Assembly (NCBI GenBank): GCA_937923225.1
Contig: CALAKR010000351.1
Coordinates: 1-15,774, forward strand
Length of the DNA: 15,774 nt
Direction of reading: 5' to 3'
Source of the DNA: an uncultured Aquabacterium sp.
GTDB lineage: Bacteria > Pseudomonadota > Gammaproteobacteria > Burkholderiales > Burkholderiaceae_C
Both the position numbers and the translations under genes were made by a program. Numbering within the stretch: the stretch's first letter is position 1; each line of letters opens with the position of its first letter. The notes below the pieces were generated by a model that saw only the letters and a list, made by a program, of their open reading frames with translations, had not been told where the DNA came from and ran no database searches. Shown here piece by piece: positions 1 to 7,115 of this stretch.

Positions 1-180
1 GCCTGCGTGCAGCGCCTGCAGGTCGGCCTCCTGGTCCCTGCGTAAACCCAGGGCCGCTGCCAACAGCCCACCCAATGCGGAGGCGGTGGGACGGTCATCG
101 CTGCCGCGGTACTCGCCGACAGCGGCTTCACCCCAGGAAGCCATCGCCCCTTTAATCTGAAAGATGAGGTACTGGGGCAT
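1..180 (-). CDS. cas5e: Type I-E Cascade subunit Cas5e (CasD), N-terminal part only
   Basis: The first 60 codons are present; the rest lies beyond the left edge. The start MPQYLIFQIKGAMASWGEAA followed by VGEYRGS and a PTASALGGLLAAALGL stretch matches the Cas5e N-terminus, where the family reads LxFxLxGPMASWG and RxSxxxPTxSALLGLLAAALG. In I-E Cascade, Cas5e caps the crRNA 5' end, holds the 8-nt handle and contacts Cse1. The ATG at 180-178 lies 3 bp after the cas7e stop, so the two genes are probably translationally coupled in one operon. It was identified by reading the reverse complement. Family assignment is secure; nothing can be said about the missing part. Confidence 0.93.
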   Translation of the reverse strand, partial: MPQYLIFQIKGAMASWGEAAVGEYRGSDDRPTASALGGLLAAALGLRRDQEADLQALHAG

Positions 181-183
181 GGC

Positions 184-1236
184 TCAGCCCTGCACGAATG
201 CCGTCAGTTCCTTGAACGAGCCGGCGCCGGCCTCTGCATTCATGACGCAGCGATCATCGGCACAGTCTCCGTACACGGCATCGAAGTTTTTCTGTTGCGC
301 CTCCAGCGCCTCAATGGCCGCGGCCAGCATGGAGCGATCACCCCATGCCTGCACAGGTTTGATGAAGGCCTGAGACAGGCTGCGCGGTTGCTGAGGGCCT
401 TTTTCGGCCATCACATAGCCAGCGTAAGCCCGCGAGGCAAAGCTGTTCTGCATGCCTGTAGGAGTGACCTTCGTGACGGCCTGCAGCAGGGCGCTCAAAG
501 CCTTGTCGGCCAGCGCCTTGTCGCCATGCAGGTTCTGCTCAAGCAATGTCCGGTTGATGCACAGATACAGATAGAACAAGCCGGCTCCGTAGCCGCGCTC
601 GCCGATGTGCCCTGCACCACGCGGGTTGAGGTCATCGACGGCACTGAAGTAGTCGTCTTCAACTTCCGCGCGGTGCACCGTGAAGGCGTGAGACACCTGC
701 ACAGCGGCCTCTACATTGAAATCGGATGCATCGGCCAGCATGCGGCCAAACATGGCCACATCTACCGCGTGCGCATCTTGGGTCAGCAACTTGAGTTCGG
801 CTTCTTCTGGCCCGGCCTTGCGTTCTGCACAAACCTTGGCCAGCGCGATGGCAGCTTCACGTTCGGCCGGCAAGATGTGCGCCAGTTGCTCGATCTGCAG
901 GTCTTCATCGTTGTCCTGCTTTTTTTCAGCCTTGAGCTTGCCGAAGGTGGCTCCGATCTGGCGGGCCCATTCGCGAGCCTTCTTTTCATCTACACCGCCA
1001 TCCTTCATGACCTGATAGAGGTCACGACCGAAAGATTTGGTACGTACCCCCAAGTGCTCGCCCAAGGCTGACTCGAATACATCGGATGTGCGCCAAGCCC
1101 GCTTCTGGCTCTGAGAAGAAATGCGCAGACGATTGGTGCCGCCCATCAGCGCCGTTTTGGGGCGACCGGTGTCGTCTCGGTTGAGGTTGGCGGGGGCGTG
1201 GCTGGTGAGGATGTGCAGCTGGATGAAGTCAGACAT
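184..1236 (-). CDS. cas7e: Type I-E Cascade backbone subunit Cas7e (CasC/Cse4)
   Basis: 350 aa from the chosen ATG at 1236, close to E. coli Cas7e (363 aa). Six copies normally form the helical backbone that coats the crRNA spacer and flips out every sixth base. The N-terminus MSDFIQLHILTSHAPANLN followed by RDDTGRPKTALMGG and RLRISSQSQKRAWRTSD is the diagnostic Cas7e signature. A middle part GLFYLYLCINRTLL and a late TPTGMQNSFASRAYAGYV also fit the family. An in-frame start seven codons earlier (1257) is possible, but the ATG at 1236 has GGGAGA about 9 nt upstream and aligns with the family N-terminus. A 52-bp gap separates it from cse2 upstream; cas5e follows after 3 bp. No frameshift is seen. 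Confidence 0.96.
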   Translation of the reverse strand: MSDFIQLHILTSHAPANLNRDDTGRPKTALMGGTNRLRISSQSQKRAWRTSDVFESALGEHLGVRTKSFGRDLYQVMKDGGVDEKKAREWARQIGATFGKLKAEKKQDNDEDLQIEQLAHILPAEREAAIALAKVCAERKAGPEEAELKLLTQDAHAVDVAMFGRMLADASDFNVEAAVQVSHAFTVHRAEVEDDYFSAVDDLNPRGAGHIGERGYGAGLFYLYLCINRTLLEQNLHGDKALADKALSALLQAVTKVTPTGMQNSFASRAYAGYVMAEKGPQQPRSLSQAFIKPVQAWGDRSMLAAAIEALEAQQKNFDAVYGDCADDRCVMNAEAGAGSFKELTAFVQG

Positions 1237-1288
1237 GAGGTGGTCTCCCTGGTTCAAAGTTCGAAATGGCGGCTAGCGGGCGAGTGCA

Positions 1289-1789: not shown

Positions 1790-3423
1790 GCTTCCTCCTT
1801 GTTCTTGGTCTTTGCTACTTTGGCGGGACGTGCTTTAGCAGGCTTGCCGACATCCAGTGTGGGCAAGGCCAGCAGTTGCCTGAGCTTGCTGCCGTTCAAG
1901 GTGTTGAGCAGCAGCTTGTGGGCATCGGCCACGCGGCGCGGATTCTGACGGTCGATCAGGCCCGCTCCGACGAACTCCTTGTCAAAAAGGTCGCGGCATA
2001 CTTGACTCAAGGTCTGCAACCACCGCTCGCCAAGGGCTTCGTGGTCTTGCACGGCACTGCCCCGCACTTCATCGATCACCTCTCGCAGGTTGCGGTAGAA
2101 GGCCTCTTCCGTCTGCGCCCAAAACCGGGCATCAACCAGGCTGAAGTCACCCCGTGCATCCAACTTGAACCACGCCGACTTGACGGCACTGCTCAGGGCA
2201 TAGCGGGCAAAGCGTGCACCCTCCAGCCAGCGACTGATCACTACCTCAAGGCGCCGCAAGTCCGATGGGGCGCAGTCATCCAGGTTGTACAGAGGCAGGC
2301 GGGCCTCGTACCAACATCGGGCCTTCATGTTCTCCATATCGAAACCGAAGGCCCAGATCTGGAATTGCCCCCCCACGGTGCTCTGTCGCCGGGACAGCGC
2401 ATGGCGCTCCACAACGCGTGCGGGGCGCTGCCTTTGTTTGTCATCACCAGAGCCCAGCACCCACGGTAGCCAGTGGCGATAGCCAAAGCCTCCGGGTTGA
2501 GGGTGCAGAGGCAGCCATCCCTCCTTGGTCTGGTAATAGGGGGAGAGCACATGGTCCCATGGCCCTTTGTAGTTCAAGCCATAGGCCTTGGTGCTGTACT
2601 GACTGAGCAGCCTGTCGCTGGCACGATGGCACAGGTCGCAGGTACCGCTGCTCGTCGACTGAAAGTCGAGCCGGATACGGCGAGGCATGGCCCAGAAGAT
2701 GTGCAAAGGGTGGGTTTGCTTGGGCGCGGTTTCGCCCTTGTCAGGCTGGATAGCCGTGATGTCGGCCAGCCATGGAAAGGTGAAGTGACCATCCACCTTT
2801 TTCGCGTCACCACCATGGTCGTGGTGATGAGGCGGCTCGATGACGTTGAGCCAGAGGTCATGCCACAGCGACTTCGGTGGCTGACAGGCCAGCAGCGTCG
2901 TCAAGGGCCCACCGCCGCGCAAGCCCGTGCGGTGACCGGCACCGCCGGCGGGTGCGTTGATCTGTAGTGTCAGCAGGGCAATCACCGCACAATGCGGGCA
3001 TAGCCGCTCGACGCGACCGCGTTTGACGAAATGATCGCTGTTGTTCTTGATGGTGTTCTCACCCGGTGAGTCGACGAGCAATGCGGCCACCCCGACATCG
3101 CCCGACTCGCCCAGCACCCTGTCCTGCATGAACCGCGCCCCGTCGCCGTCGTACACAAACGCGTCGACGCCCGGTTGAAACCAGGTGTGCAGGTCAGTGC
3201 GCGGAGGCGGCGTTTTGAACAAGGCTCGCCAGGCAAATGTGTCTTGCACCGGTACGAAGGTAGCCAGCAGGCCGATGGCGAACTGGGCCAGTGCGCCATT
3301 GAAATCGGCACGATCAGCGTCAAAGGCCAGCACCTCCGGATCGGACAACTGCTCCGGCGAGATCCAGCGCCGCTCGCCCGCGCGGGTGCGCACGGGCATC
3401 CATGGTTCAGTCAACAGCGACAT
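1786..3423 (-). CDS. cse1: Type I-E Cascade large subunit Cse1 (CasA/Cas8e)
   Basis: 545 aa (E. coli 502). Cse1 reads the PAM, starts R-loop formation and recruits Cas3. The N-terminus MSLLTEPWMPVRT with ADFNGALAQFAIGLL and the Gly-rich AGGAGHRTGLRGGGPLTTLL (residues 159-178) are typical. Two cysteine pairs, CPHC (142-145) and CDLC (262-265), could bind zinc together. A His-rich loop PPHHHDHGG (198-205) is local. It is the first gene of the Cascade operon: GGGGAG lies about 7 nt before the ATG, and a strong promoter lies 40-68 bp upstream. The stop overlaps cse2 by 4 bp. If the RNA proposed upstream is real, this is the transcript it would repress. No disruption is seen. Confidence 0.96.
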   Translation of the reverse strand: MSLLTEPWMPVRTRAGERRWISPEQLSDPEVLAFDADRADFNGALAQFAIGLLATFVPVQDTFAWRALFKTPPPRTDLHTWFQPGVDAFVYDGDGARFMQDRVLGESGDVGVAALLVDSPGENTIKNNSDHFVKRGRVERLCPHCAVIALLTLQINAPAGGAGHRTGLRGGGPLTTLLACQPPKSLWHDLWLNVIEPPHHHDHGGDAKKVDGHFTFPWLADITAIQPDKGETAPKQTHPLHIFWAMPRRIRLDFQSTSSGTCDLCHRASDRLLSQYSTKAYGLNYKGPWDHVLSPYYQTKEGWLPLHPQPGGFGYRHWLPWVLGSGDDKQRQRPARVVERHALSRRQSTVGGQFQIWAFGFDMENMKARCWYEARLPLYNLDDCAPSDLRRLEVVISRWLEGARFARYALSSAVKSAWFKLDARGDFSLVDARFWAQTEEAFYRNLREVIDEVRGSAVQDHEALGERWLQTLSQVCRDLFDKEFVGAGLIDRQNPRRVADAHKLLLNTLNGSKLRQLLALPTLDVGKPAKARPAKVAKTKNKEEA

Positions 3424-3462
3424 ACCGGCTCCCCATTTTCGATGCGATTTTTAGTACGCCAT

Positions 3463-3491
3463 TTATTACATAAGTGGTTTGTGTCTGTCAA
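3463..3491 (-). promoter_or_regulatory. Promoter of the cse1-cse2-cas7e-cas5e operon
   Basis: On the minus strand a perfect -35 TTGACA (3491-3486) is followed by exactly 17 bp and a -10-like TAATAA (3468-3463). The expected start of transcription is near 3456, giving a leader of about 33 nt before the cse1 ATG at 3423. The surrounding 3440-3530 stretch is clearly richer in A and T than the flanking genes. The -35 is a perfect match; the -10 is only a partial match to TATAAT. The interval between the two boxes is the region matched by the pseudo-spacer at 3544-3563. Confidence 0.7.
3472..3487 (+). promoter_or_regulatory. Putative Cascade target (PAM plus seed match) inside the cas promoter
   Basis: AAG (3472-3474), a canonical type I-E PAM in E. 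coli, is followed by TGGTTTGTGTCTG (3475-3487). Compared with the first 13 bases of the pseudo-spacer at 3544-3556 (TGGTTGGTGTCGG), positions 1-5, 7-11 and 13 match. The only mismatches are positions 6 and 12, the bases known to be flipped out and unread in I-E Cascade. The site fills most of the -10/-35 interval of the cse1 promoter and reaches the -35, so bound Cascade would block RNA polymerase. Partial complementarity would be expected not to trigger Cas3. The matches are seen; repression is inferred. Confidence 0.6.
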
Positions 3492-3512
3492 ATTATTCTG
3501 TAGGACAATGTC

Positions 3513-3543
3513 TGCTTCCCGAATCAAAGTTTGGGATGACCCG
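3513..3543 (+). repeat. CRISPR-repeat-like element 1 (degenerate I-E repeat)
   Basis: The core is CTTCCC (3515-3520) followed by a hairpin CCCGAA / TTTGGG (3518-3523 with 3530-3535, one G-U pair, 6-nt loop). The 3' end is GGGATGACCCG (3533-3543), one base off the GGGATGAACCG end known in many type I-E repeats and close to GGGATAAACCG in E. coli. The Cas6e cut expected after the last G of the stem would leave the 8-nt handle AUGACCCG. The loop is 2 nt longer than in canonical 29-nt repeats. The array repeat of this strain is not in the window, so the comparison is with remembered repeats of other species. Confidence 0.55.
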
Positions 3544-3584
3544 TGGTTGGTGTCGGGACCCAACCGTTCCCCAAATCCTTGGGG
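3536..3584 (+). ncRNA. Putative CRISPR-derived regulatory RNA (CreA/CreR-like) with a 20-nt pseudo-spacer
   Basis: If both repeat-like hairpins are cut by Cas6e, the product is an 8-nt handle (3536-3543), a 20-nt guide TGGTTGGTGTCGGGACCCAA (3544-3563) and a 21-nt 3' segment with its hairpin (3564-3584). That is 49 nt, against 61 nt for an E. coli crRNA. The guide is 12 nt shorter than the usual 32, which is two 6-nt Cas7 steps. The bases just before the guide are CCG, as in true repeats, so the locus itself would not be seen as target. Its best match in the window is the cas promoter at 3472-3487. No good promoter is seen upstream; GACAAT at 3504-3509 is a weak -10 candidate. CreA and CreR RNAs are known in other Cas loci; this instance is inferred. 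Confidence 0.5.
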
Positions 3585-3592
3585 ATGCCGCT
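3564..3592 (+). repeat. CRISPR-repeat-like element 2 (degenerate I-E repeat)
   Basis: GTTCCCC (3566-3572) and GGGGAT (3581-3586) are separated by 8 nt, exactly as in the E. coli I-E repeat. The fold is a 6-bp stem CCCCAA / TTGGGG (3569-3574 with 3579-3584) closed by the tetraloop ATCC, the same geometry as a Cas6e substrate. The predicted cut site G-A after the stem is kept. The 3' part (GCCGCT) has diverged from the usual ACCG end. That would matter little if this copy supplies only the 3' hairpin of an upstream RNA. Another small hairpin, CCGC-TACC-GCGG (3588-3599), follows directly. Confidence 0.55.
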
Positions 3593-3616
3593 ACCGCGGA
3601 GTCGCATCGGGGCGGC

Positions 3617-3644
3617 TTGAAAAAATAACCAATTTGGTTAAAAT
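3617..3644 (+). promoter_or_regulatory. Candidate mqsRA promoter
   Basis: TTGAAA (3617-3622), a 16-bp spacer and TAAAAT (3639-3644) resemble sigma-70 boxes and lie in a short A/T-rich tract just before mqsR. The predicted start near 3651 would leave only about 8 nt before the GTG at 3659 and would exclude the AGGG at 3647-3650. The mRNA would then be nearly leaderless, or the true start lies upstream. The call is therefore tentative. Confidence 0.45.
3627..3639 (+). promoter_or_regulatory. Candidate MqsA operator (AACCAATTTGGTT palindrome)
   Basis: AACCAA-T-TTGGTT is a perfect 6+1+6 palindrome lying between the candidate -35 and -10 boxes of mqsRA. E. coli MqsA represses its own operon by binding palindromes with AACC and GGTT arms (AACCT-N-AGGTT type). 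The MqsA here keeps the DNA-contact residues N97 and R101. The outer arms match; the inner bases differ (AA/TT rather than T/A), so affinity is not certain. Confidence 0.55.
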
Positions 3645-3658
3645 ACAGGGTTTTCAGC

Positions 3659-3961
3659 GTGGAAAAAAACACACCTCATTGCAAACTGCATGTCGTGAAA
3701 GCACTGGTGCAGGCCGGTCAGGTGCGCACCACCACCAGTGCCCTGATCGGCGCTCGCGCACTCGGCATCGACACTGTGGCCGGCATGTGCGAGGTGGTGA
3801 TGGCCCTGACATCCGCCCATTTCCACAAGAGCATGACCACCCATGCGGATCACCGGATCTGGCAGGACGTCTACCGAACCCACACCACCACAGGTTTGGC
3901 CGTTTATTTGAAACTCACCGTGGTGGATGACCTGCTGATCGTGTCGTTCAAGGAGCTGTGA
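3659..3961 (+). CDS. mqsR: MqsR-family toxin, mRNA endoribonuclease
   Basis: 100 aa (E. coli MqsR 98 aa), aligning end to end: the start MEKNTPHCKLHVVKALVQAG compares with E. coli MEKRTPHTRL..VK.LVNAG, and the end VYLKLTVVDDLLIVSFKEL is nearly the same. MqsR is a RelE/YoeB-fold, ribosome-independent RNase that cuts mRNA mainly at GCU/GCA. The residues equivalent to E. coli K56, Q68 and Y81 are present as K57, Q69 and Y83, so it should be active. The start is GTG at 3659, chosen by alignment; AGGG lies about 8 nt upstream. It is transcribed opposite to the cas genes, toxin first as usual for this family, and its stop is 2 bp before the mqsA ATG. Confidence 0.93.
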   Translation: MEKNTPHCKLHVVKALVQAGQVRTTTSALIGARALGIDTVAGMCEVVMALTSAHFHKSMTTHADHRIWQDVYRTHTTTGLAVYLKLTVVDDLLIVSFKEL

Positions 3962-3963
3962 CC

Positions 3964-4365
3964 ATGAAATGCCCAAGCTGTGGTGGCGCCGAACTGGTGC
4001 GCGACACCCGCGATCTGCCTTACAGCTACAAGGGCCAGCAAGGCCTCGTGCAGCAGATCACGGGTGATTTCTGCCCAGCCTGCGGCGAGGTCATCCTTGA
4101 TGCGGCGCAAGGCGACCGCTTCAGCACATGGATCGGGGCCTTTCAAAAGCAGGTCAATGAACAGCACTTTGATCCATCCGAGATCGCCCGCGTTCGCAAG
4201 AAGCTGGCCCTGGACCAACGACAAGCCGCAGAGCTGTTCGGAGGGGGTGTCAACGCCTTCTCTCGCTATGAAACAGGCAAGACCACGCCGCCACTGGCCT
4301 TGCTGCAATTGTTGAAGGTGCTCGACAGACACCCCGAACTACTGGCAGAGATCCAATCGACTTGA
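3964..4365 (+). CDS. mqsA: MqsA-family antitoxin and autorepressor
   Basis: 133 aa (E. coli 131). The N-terminal zinc domain has CPSC at 3-6 and CPAC at 37-40, the same four cysteine positions as E. coli MqsA, and neutralises MqsR. The C-terminal HTH-Xre domain (about 69-133) contains VRKKLALDQRQAAELFGGG and NAFSRYETGK with N97 and R101, the DNA-contact residues. The ATG at 3964 is preferred over an in-frame GTG at 3958 (which would overlap the toxin stop), because AAGGAG (3950-3955) is 8 nt before the ATG but only 2 nt before the GTG. The gene ends 17 bp from the convergent end of cas3. Both partners look intact, so the module should work. Confidence 0.94.
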   Translation: MKCPSCGGAELVRDTRDLPYSYKGQQGLVQQITGDFCPACGEVILDAAQGDRFSTWIGAFQKQVNEQHFDPSEIARVRKKLALDQRQAAELFGGGVNAFSRYETGKTTPPLALLQLLKVLDRHPELLAEIQST

Positions 4366-4382: not shown

Positions 4383-7115
4383 TCAGGACGACAACGGCTT
4401 CAGGCCGGAGAGCGGGTCATAGACCCAGTCGCGACGGATCTGGCGATCTCCTTGTTTCATCAGGGCCGCCCCCCGCCAGCCGAAGTCGCTGGCCTGCAAA
4501 GCCAGCAGGATGGACCACTTTCCTTGATCCGGCAGGCTGGACTGGGCCTGTCGCCAGGCCGCCAGTGCCGCTTCGTCTTCAGGTTCTGCGGCTTCGGCGA
4601 TCAGCCGCTGAGGCACGCGCACTGTGCTGTAGGCCCAGGCATGCTCAGGCCGTGATGCAGCCCACGGCCGCAGATGCCCACCCTCCCAGCACGCCAGCAC
4701 GACATCCACACTGGGCTCGCCCAGGCGCGAGGGGGTACGGGCATCGTCCCACCAGTCGGTGATGCCGCGCTGATAACCACTGGCAAGCTTGATCGTGTTG
4801 CTCTGCGATTCGGAGGCCTCGCTCATGGCTTTGCCTTCGACCTGCACCGCGTTCTGCATCAATGAGGCAGGCAGTTCCGCGTCCTGGCCGAACACGCCCT
4901 CAATGAGACGCCTGGCGTCTTCGGGCATGCGTAACTGGCCTTCTTGCAACAAGCGCGCCGTCAACCACAGTTGCCCGTGGTGTGGGTAGACCTTTGCCGA
5001 TTTCGGAAAGGCATCCTTGACCCAGGTGGCGGATGGCGATTCCTGCCAGCGTGGCCCGTGCACCCACAGGCACGCACGCGCACGTCCATCGGGCTGAGAC
5101 GGATCTGCCAAGCGCTCTCCAGCCCCACTCCGACGATGCCGCTGCAGCCGGCCGGCACGCTGGATCAGGCGATCAATGGGCGCCAGATCGCTCACGACCA
5201 GATCCCAGTCGGCATCGAGAGATTGCTCTGCAACCTGGGTGGCGATCACCAATCGCCCCTGTCGAAGCGAGGGCGTACTCTGCGGCCCGAAGTGCTGCAG
5301 GATGCGCCCCTCCATGTCGAGCCGGTCACCCAGGCTGAAACGGGCATGAAACAACATCAGCCTGTCTGGCGTCAACTCGGCGGCGAACCGGGCATGGGCA
5401 TCCAGCGCTTCGGCCACCGTGTTGCGCATCCAGCACACGCAGCGCCCCTCGGCCAGCGCGGCACGGATACCCTCTACCACCTCATCAATGTCGGCCAGAT
5501 AGCGCACATCCACCGTGCGCCGCACATCGGCGCGTGTGGGCATGGCCAGCAAGTCGATTCGGCCAGGCTCAGCGAACGACCAACTCGTCACAAGGGGGTA
5601 GCGCGTCTCGGACGAAGCCGGCACAAGCTGGCCGCCCCCCTCCGCGAAAGCATCCAGCAACGCCTGCTTCATGCGCTGCGGCAAGGTGGCAGACAGCAAG
5701 ATGGCACTGCCGCCCACCGACGCATGGGCACGCAGCACCTGTTCAAGTACGCCTTGCATGTAGGCATCGCAAGCATGCACTTCATCCACGATGACCACCT
5801 TGCGAAACAGCCCCAGCAGGCGCAACGACTGGTGCTTGCCTTGCAGTACAGCCATCAGCGCCTGGTCGATGGTGCCAGCGCCGGCGGGCGCCAGCAGGGC
5901 ACGCTTGTTGTGGTCAGCCAGCCAGGCGGTGCAGCGCGCTGTCGCGGTGTCATCAAGTTGATGCCCATCGCGCTCGGTCTGCCCTGGCTGCAGCACCGAT
6001 TCGGCGAACGCTGCCACCAAATCCCTCTGGCCATTGGCCAAGGACAGGCTGGCCATGCCATCGAACAGGCATGCATAGAAAGTGCTCAGGCGACCATACA
6101 TGGCGTTGGCCGTGGCCATGGTGGGCAGGCCCATGTAGAAGCCCTCGGCCAGCCCCTCGCTCATCAGCCGGTGAGTGAGCATCATGGCGGCTTCGGTCTT
6201 GCCAGAACCCGTGACGTCTTCCAGCAAATGGATCTGCGCCCCGTTCGGCAGCGCTACCTGACTGGCCCACGCCTGCAGCGGCGAGGGATGCTGGATATGC
6301 GGGAACAACTGCTCAAAGGCCATGGCTGGCCGGGCAGGCACGGGCAGCACGCCCACGTCACTCAGTGCCCGACTTGCAGCTTGTCGAGCGGTTTGCCAGT
6401 AAGCGGTCAGATCCTGCGCTTGGCTGCGATAGGGAAAATGCGACTGGTTGGACCCGATCCAGTCTGCCAGCACGGCCACGCCAGCCAGCCACCAGGACAG
6501 TTGGCGACTGACGTTCAGGAATCGACGCGGGTCAGCAAAGCAGGGGTGTTCAAAGTCGATGTCAGACAGGAACATGCCGCGCATGGCTTGCACGAATTCG
6601 AATGCGGCACGCTGATCGAATGGGTATTGAAAGTGGGGATCCAGCGCCTTGGCAAACTCTCTAGGGGGTTGTCCGTGGTGCCCCGTCATGGCCCTTGCCC
6701 AGAAGCAAAGCCCTTCAAGGAGATCATCGGTGGCTGGCCCGAACCAGGCTTCTGCAGCAGCATCCTCTTGCAATGCAAGCCACAGCAGCATGCCCAGGGT
6801 GTCATGCCGCTCACTGTATTGATGACGACAGATCCGCTGCTGCAACCTCTGCAGGATGTCTTCACGCTGGCCTTGAAAGGTGGTCGCAAACTTACCCAGG
6901 TCATGCAAAGCCAGCCAGAACCCTATCCATGGCAGCAATTGCGCCTCAGGCAAGCCCAGTCGATGCTGGAGTAGCGCACGAATTTGGGGGCTGCGCTCGA
7001 TGTAAACAGTGCCCGCAGCAGCAACATCCAGGCTATGAAAGGGCAACAGATGCCAGGCAGAGGAGCTTCCGTCTACCGGTTTCGCTTTCCCCCAATAGTC
7101 GAACATCCCGGTCAT
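4383..7115 (-). CDS. cas3: Type I-E Cas3 nuclease-helicase
   Basis: 910 aa, a full HD-helicase fusion (E. coli 888). Recruited by Cascade, it nicks and unwinds target DNA. The HD nuclease part (about 1-225) has HSLD (27-30), HDLGKF (71-76), H104, GHHG (145-148) and ADWIGS (217-222). The helicase has Walker A TGSGKTEA (302-309), DEVH (444-447), SATLP (475-479), ATQVAEQSLDAD (625-636) and QRAGRLQRH (652-660), followed by an accessory C-terminal domain. All catalytic motifs are intact. The ATG at 7115 follows a GGGGCGG stretch; an ATG three codons later is possible. It is split from cse1 by mqsRA and sits 18 bp after the thioredoxin-like gene, so it may be co-transcribed with that gene. No own promoter is obvious in the short gap. 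Confidence 0.96.
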   Translation of the reverse strand: MTGMFDYWGKAKPVDGSSSAWHLLPFHSLDVAAAGTVYIERSPQIRALLQHRLGLPEAQLLPWIGFWLALHDLGKFATTFQGQREDILQRLQQRICRHQYSERHDTLGMLLWLALQEDAAAEAWFGPATDDLLEGLCFWARAMTGHHGQPPREFAKALDPHFQYPFDQRAAFEFVQAMRGMFLSDIDFEHPCFADPRRFLNVSRQLSWWLAGVAVLADWIGSNQSHFPYRSQAQDLTAYWQTARQAASRALSDVGVLPVPARPAMAFEQLFPHIQHPSPLQAWASQVALPNGAQIHLLEDVTGSGKTEAAMMLTHRLMSEGLAEGFYMGLPTMATANAMYGRLSTFYACLFDGMASLSLANGQRDLVAAFAESVLQPGQTERDGHQLDDTATARCTAWLADHNKRALLAPAGAGTIDQALMAVLQGKHQSLRLLGLFRKVVIVDEVHACDAYMQGVLEQVLRAHASVGGSAILLSATLPQRMKQALLDAFAEGGGQLVPASSETRYPLVTSWSFAEPGRIDLLAMPTRADVRRTVDVRYLADIDEVVEGIRAALAEGRCVCWMRNTVAEALDAHARFAAELTPDRLMLFHARFSLGDRLDMEGRILQHFGPQSTPSLRQGRLVIATQVAEQSLDADWDLVVSDLAPIDRLIQRAGRLQRHRRSGAGERLADPSQPDGRARACLWVHGPRWQESPSATWVKDAFPKSAKVYPHHGQLWLTARLLQEGQLRMPEDARRLIEGVFGQDAELPASLMQNAVQVEGKAMSEASESQSNTIKLASGYQRGITDWWDDARTPSRLGEPSVDVVLACWEGGHLRPWAASRPEHAWAYSTVRVPQRLIAEAAEPEDEAALAAWRQAQSSLPDQGKWSILLALQASDFGWRGAALMKQGDRQIRRDWVYDPLSGLKPLSS

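Follow-up and report, generated by a model that had tools for sequence, protein, structure and literature searches.

A probable CreR gene beside the cse1 promoter of an Aquabacterium type I-E CRISPR-Cas operon, with guide and target covarying among relatives

Results

Genes of the locus

The window (the whole stretch of 15,774 nucleotides analysed here, from an uncultured Aquabacterium sp.) carries on its minus strand a type I-E operon with profile matches to cas7, cse2 and cse1, and with cas3 upstream. The genes are as follows:

7..174, minus strand: start of cas5e, truncated by the contig end (56.7 bits, profile positions 1-56 of 230, below the family cut-off)
184..1257, minus strand: cas7 (cse4), TIGR01869
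1289..1789, minus strand: cse2 (cas11), TIGR02548
1786..3423, minus strand: cse1 (cas8e), TIGR02547, first gene of the putatively repressed operon
3659..4365, plus strand: mqsR toxin gene (3659-3961, PF15723) and mqsA antitoxin gene (3964-4365, PF15731), between creR (see below) and cas3
4383..7115, minus strand: cas3, by profile match

The interval between cse1 and cas3 is made up of a 235-nt intergenic stretch and the plus-strand mqsR-mqsA pair. No cas6e was found in the genome; its assembly is 54% complete, with a break inside cas5e. A real CRISPR array is located on another contig of the same genome; its repeat is GTGTTCCCCACGCATGTGGGGATGAACCG, and its period of 61 nt corresponds to 32-nt spacers. 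At the other end of the locus, a thioredoxin-like gene (PF00085, 7134-7619) ends just before the start of cas3 on the same strand, and possibly shares a transcript with it.

A mini-CRISPR element upstream of cse1

A mini-CRISPR element occupies positions 3516-3592, and the following features were assigned to it and to its possible promoter:

3481..3486, plus strand: GTGTCT, weak candidate -35 of creR (3/6), which would fall inside the CreR target
3504..3509, plus strand: GACAAT, candidate -10 of creR, 40 nt before the guide, read by hand
3516..3543, plus strand: psiR1, degenerate repeat with a hairpin and the 5' handle ATGACCCG (3536-3543)
3536..3584, plus strand: predicted mature CreR RNA (handle, guide and psiR2 hairpin), from presumed Cas6e-type processing and a computed fold
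3544..3563, plus strand: pseudo-spacer (guide) of 20 nt, TGGTTGGTGTCGGGACCCAA, from sequence and structural scans
3564..3592, plus strand: psiR2, degenerate repeat TTCCCC-AAATCCTT-GGGGATG, with a 6-bp stem retained

CreRs (cas-regulating RNAs) are crRNA-like RNAs by which Cascade or Cas12a is directed to a cas promoter (PMC12737573; this and the other papers cited by PMC number are represented here by excerpts). In the window, the handle shares 7/8 letters with the handle ATGAACCG of the genome's real repeat, and is directly followed by the first 13 letters of the guide, TGGTTGGTGTCGG (3544-3556). The psiR2 hairpin, CCCCAA-ATCC-TTGGGG, contains six pairs, the innermost of which differs from the real repeat on both sides. 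Repeat-like sequences flanking a pseudo-spacer, such a handle and a 6-bp psiR2 hairpin together make up the crRNA-like architecture of a CreR. A canonical CRISPR array was considered and rejected: there are only two repeats, identical to the genome's array repeat at 15/29 and 17/29 letters. Cas6e-type cleavage, which we take to fall 8 nt before the end of a repeat, would yield an RNA with its ends at 3536 and 3584; the ends put forward in the initial annotation agree with such processing of psiR2.

The guide (3544-3563) is self-complementary in a computed fold (GGTTGG...CCAACC, including the next bases), so that in the free state it could mask its seed by folding into a hairpin.

In 11/19 loci the best -10-like hexamer is one located 38-42 nt before the guide, and by hand count that of the window ties for best. 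A constant creR promoter is only a lead, as the scores are often barely above those of shuffles. Overlap between the possible promoter (3481-3509 in the window) and the target holds in some loci only; through it, CreR-Cascade might restrain the supply of its guide as well. A scan of 3380-3720 revealed no intrinsic terminator.

A partial match to the guide in the cse1 promoter region

The counterpart of the guide is located within a predicted promoter of cse1:

3462..3491, minus strand: predicted cse1 promoter (our own scoring), -35 TTGACA at 3491-3486, 18-nt spacer, -10 AATAAA at 3467-3462
3472..3487, plus strand: CreR target, AAG PAM at 3472-3474 and protospacer TGGTTTGTGTCTG at 3475-3487 (sequence, shuffle test and genus-wide pattern search)

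As reported in the initial annotation, the guide matches this site after AAG at 11/13 positions and departs from it only at positions 6 and 12; guide positions 14-20 are all mismatched. A partial match of this kind to the element's own cas promoter region, beside a PAM, is a further mark of a CreR. Dinucleotide shuffling of 3424-3515, repeated 100,000 times, never produced an AAG followed by a match of at least 11/13. The pattern AAGTGGTTNGTGTCNG, in which positions 6 and 12 are left free, has one copy in the genome (54% complete) and none in the 41 other genomes of the genus. When AAG plus the seed was sought in the window with up to three mismatches, five matches appeared: the site itself (0 mismatches), the guide (2) and three places elsewhere (3 each).

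The predicted cse1 promoter ranked top of 19 candidates by our own scoring, with a perfect -35 and a weak -10 preceded by TG; it was absent from the output of a stricter promoter scan. The last two bases of the target touch the -35. A location between the -35 and the -10, as had been proposed, thus holds for the window, the -10 being the less certain of the two, but not for several relatives, in which by our reading the target is found just upstream of the likely -35. Among relatives' targets, the top-ranked candidate promoter overlaps in 10/19 loci and lower-ranked candidates do so in the other nine.

Occurrence among related cse1 loci

A sample of 99 loci was assembled (the window, L007-L014, L016-L073, L075-L102 and L104-L107), each read for at most 900 nt upstream of its cse1 match; the cse1 loci taken were the best 30 of 38, 30 of 41 and 30 of 34 listed places by score. 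L103 and L108 were left out; they are fragments of genes that the sample contains as L063 and L107. In some loci, L030, L050, L063 and L070 among them, the profile match starts inside the gene, such that part of the 900 nt is coding, and contig ends shorten the upstream stretch of L016, L066 and L079.

A mechanical rule, blind to the promoter, required a handle of at least 6/8 letters, a guide of 10-40 nt and then a TTCC opening a 6-bp stem, and it returned 34 structures in 23/99 loci. Eight of the 34 belong to L090, where a true type I-E array of at least eight repeat-spacer units lies directly upstream of cse1. With L090 excluded, 20/26 structures, in 20/22 loci including the window, possess, after an AAG in their own upstream region, a match at no fewer than 9 of the 11 read positions. 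When guides were swapped among loci, 8/2,154 combinations reached this threshold, compared with 19/22 for a guide's own locus in the same comparison. The initial annotation had suggested examining guide and promoter for covariation in related genomes, and independent drift of the two is contradicted by these counts.

Two structure-bearing loci, L089 and L105, contain no AAG match; in L089 a match follows ATG instead, in the opposite orientation, and in L105 the structure is present and has no target. L046, one letter short of the mechanical rule, has a 12/13 match after an AAA PAM. Structures of 16, 17 and 25 nt (L056, L063, L058 and L009) match nothing at 9/11; in them, a handle present by chance pairs with psiR1 or psiR2 of the same element. 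By the same rule, 76/99 cse1 loci (one being the near miss L046) are without a structure, among them two of the eight nearest relatives (L008 and L012). The device is therefore common, but far from universal.

Looser scans were made of 67 loci. A handle-only scan gave matches of at least 9/10 in 17/67 loci and in 45/4,422 swaps, with one clear false positive at 9/10 (L029) and with chance matches among those at 8. A structural scan listed 27/67 loci, of which 18 were chosen by eye for the pair set described below. Because of that choice by eye, the count to be trusted is that of the mechanical rule.

The mqsRA neighbour

The immediate neighbour of the element is a toxin-antitoxin pair, and this invites a reading in which the RNA is a CreA-type antitoxin that guides Cascade to silence the mqsRA promoter, in the manner of CrePA addiction modules, the match to the cas promoter being secondary. 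The position of mqsR and mqsA directly after creR, with no terminator found between them, is in keeping with this, and CrePA systems with protein toxins do exist (PMC12737573). In such systems, the guide is aimed at the promoter of the neighbouring toxin. However, a search near mqsR for AAG plus the seed within three mismatches found no second CreR site, and the pair has a protein antitoxin and a promoter-like site of its own (TTGAAA-16-TAAAAT, 3617-3644) lying over a palindrome, AACCAATTTGGTT (3627-3639). In addition, a tblastn search of L001-L074, in which most loci extend just 1.5 kb past the cse1 match, found mqsR and mqsA only in the window and its copies L006, L015 and L074, while the match to the cas promoter is kept in 20/22 loci with a mini-CRISPR. 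We therefore regard an antitoxin role as very unlikely, and mqsRA is taken as an insertion between creR and cas3.

Covariation of guide and target

The set compared position by position consists of 21 distinct guide-target pairs. In the 18 loci chosen by eye, the target was taken as the AAG-preceded site with the highest match across the 13 letters (in L046, the best match after any PAM); L016, L080, L104 and L089 were added separately, and L063, the guide of which is identical to that of L056, was omitted. Numbers of mismatches at positions 1 to 13 were 0, 0, 1, 0, 1, 15, 0, 0, 2, 3, 3, 15 and 5, every target having been chosen with the 13 letters weighed alike except that of L016, for which positions 6 and 12 were skipped in the score. 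Position 6 is mismatched in 15/21 pairs, versus 10/210 at the other positions from 1 to 11 (Fisher 1e-12), and position 12 in 15/21, versus 8/42 at positions 11 and 13 (7e-5). Mutual information between guide and target at positions 1-5, 7-11, 13 and 15 was reached by 0/2,000 permutations, whereas that at position 6 was reached by 1,918/2,000 and that at position 12 by 313/2,000.

The expectation that mismatches fall where Cascade leaves the guide unread is thus borne out, as positions 1-5, 7-11 and 13 covary and positions 6 and 12 do not. Read from these alignments, the pattern is the footprint of Cascade, which in Escherichia coli flips out every sixth base and needs no more than AAG plus five seed bases for binding in vivo (PMC5904413). 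At E. coli off-target sites, position 6 was matched above chance (PMC5904413), whereas only 6/21 are matched here.

The same data bear on other origins of the match. Were the element a decayed ordinary mini-array, resembling the promoter by chance or through a dead self-targeting spacer, then its degenerate repeats would be accounted for; this reading is already contradicted by the covariation of guide and target, since the pairing is kept in 20/22 loci and in 21 distinct pairs, and the shuffle test and a psiR2 hairpin kept through a two-sided change also speak against it. It appears extremely unlikely. Hardly any chance can be given to duplicated transcription-factor sites or to an RNA antisense to the cse1 leader. 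Both copies do appear to lie near promoters, but the letters vary between loci, free positions 6 and 12 beside constrained neighbours are unexplained by a protein site or an RNA duplex, and the target is upstream of the predicted cse1 start, and so would not be transcribed from there. To our knowledge, free positions 6 and 12 with covarying neighbours are predicted by no antisense or protein-site model. In this regard, no independent evidence comes from the handle and AAG next to the two copies, because most pairs were sought by means of them (L046 and L089 are without AAG). As for a decoy that soaks up Cas proteins, as the RNA anti-CRISPRs (Racrs) of phages do with repeat mimics (PMC10651486), it likewise has hardly any chance: a guide match is superfluous in a decoy, selection acts on the pairing of the guide, and similar elements are found upstream of cse1 in relatives.

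The extent of the match varies. In six relatives (L007, L011, L026, L051, L052 and L058), 15/20 or 16/20 positions are matched; a match that ends at position 13 is therefore a feature of the window genome, not of the family. Consequently, the earlier argument that Cas3 is not licensed because homology ends at position 13 is not general.

In L052, 16 of the first 17 guide letters are matched to a target on the opposite strand, and in L058 15/20 are matched; these CreRs are perhaps young and descended from self-derived spacers. The guides of L051 and L104, from one genus, are entirely unlike and match the promoter regions of their respective loci; in these the guide and site seem to have been replaced as a set.

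Two classes of guide length

Guides with an AAG match under the mechanical rule are 20 nt (five), 21 nt (five), 22 nt (one), 32 nt (seven) or 33 nt (two) in length. With L046 (20 nt) and L089 (31 nt) included, lengths of 20-22 nt occur in 12 loci and of 31-33 nt in 10, with none between, L056 and L063 having one guide in common. The 12-nt gap between the classes is twice the six-base footprint of Cas7, and the short class may be read as a Cascade with two fewer Cas7 units. In a Haloarcula type I-B system, repression without interference or priming is obtained with guides no longer than 24 bp (PMC10989794), and the 20-nt guide of the window may alone prevent interference. PMC9458426 yielded no passages on mismatches, spacer length or CreR.

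We tentatively propose, at slightly less than an even chance, that type I-E CreRs have two discrete guide lengths, and that about half of the family, the window included, uses a dedicated short Cascade that only represses and is unable to license Cas3; in the window, the site may also cover the creR promoter, and the transcript could run into mqsRA. No title or abstract opening that we retrieved deals with two guide-length classes or position-wise covariation, but the searches were not aimed there and missed most subscription journals, and we do not claim that either is unpublished.

Discussion

The element at 3516-3592 can with high confidence be called a creR gene, the product of which, bound to Cascade, would repress the cse1 promoter. 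Its transcript would be cut by Cas6e to a crRNA-like RNA with a 20-nt guide (3544-3563), which would load into the neighbouring type I-E Cascade. This complex would then read AAG at 3472-3474, pair through positions 1-5, 7-11 and 13 inside the cse1 promoter and exclude RNA polymerase, such that cas expression would drop as Cascade rises. With so small an R-loop and so short a guide, cutting by Cas3 would not be expected to follow. Occupation of Cascade by ordinary crRNAs, or its inhibition by an anti-CRISPR, would free the promoter.

The immune complex thus very probably turns down its own genes. The negative feedback proposed in the initial annotation is supported by 20/22 matched loci, as opposed to 8/2,154 swaps, and by the clustering of mismatches at positions 6 and 12, from which repression is inferred. 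Autorepression by CreRs, and its relief by competing crRNAs and anti-CRISPRs, are described in the excerpts of a review (PMC12737573). Other observations point the opposite way: binding of Cascade with a short R-loop has been argued to be often transcriptionally inert, on the ground that promoter repression was lost with six PAM-distal mismatches (PMC5904413). Self-folding of the guide, the weak -10, the failure of a stricter scan to recover the promoter, the lack of cas6e in the incomplete assembly, the 76/99 loci without a structure and the two structures (L089 and L105) that lack an AAG match could likewise count against this explanation.

What the relatives contribute is an independent, purely evolutionary line of evidence for type I-E CreR, as 21 pairs match where Cascade reads and drift elsewhere. 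Covariation may also allow such regulators to be recognised from sequence alone, living ones to be separated from relics, and the reason for two guide lengths to be sought. If the feedback holds, then cas levels would sense free Cascade and go up under an anti-CRISPR block; if the short complex truly only represses, then it would permit matching to a promoter without the risk of self-cutting.

Several known systems resemble the element in part. Racr, a solitary repeat mimic from a viral genome (PMC10651486), was rejected as a counterpart, as here two repeats and a targeting guide lie beside cas genes. Short-spacer repression in Haloarcula type I-B (PMC10989794) also relies on shortened guides, but was engineered, whereas the type I-E case here is natural. 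CrePA likewise places a protein toxin gene beside a crRNA-like gene (PMC12737573); unlike CrePA, the window has no target in the toxin promoter, and the toxin has its own protein antitoxin. The likeness to CreA of CreTA (type I-F, Acinetobacter) extends to the psiR1-psiS-psiR2 order, a psiS of 20 nt, an unpaired sixth position (CreA is unpaired at 6, 11 and 18) and a PAM-flanked target nearby, but CreA represses an RNA toxin gene, whereas the target in the window is a cas promoter (PMC10097628).

The closest likeness is to CreR itself, which resembles a crRNA and is partly complementary to the promoter of the cas operon to which it belongs. The primary study is reportedly that of Liu et al. 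(2023, Cell Host Microbe). Partial complementarity to the promoter is the means by which CreRs repress cas genes of types I-B, I-E and V-A (PMC13131331). They are generally uncoupled from a toxin gene (PMC12737573); here, mqsRA adjoins the element without containing a target site. The window genome is set apart by its 20-nt guide and by the presence of mqsRA between creR and cas3. CreR is already known in type I-E; the element of the window would be an example of it, and the type of regulation one that has been published.
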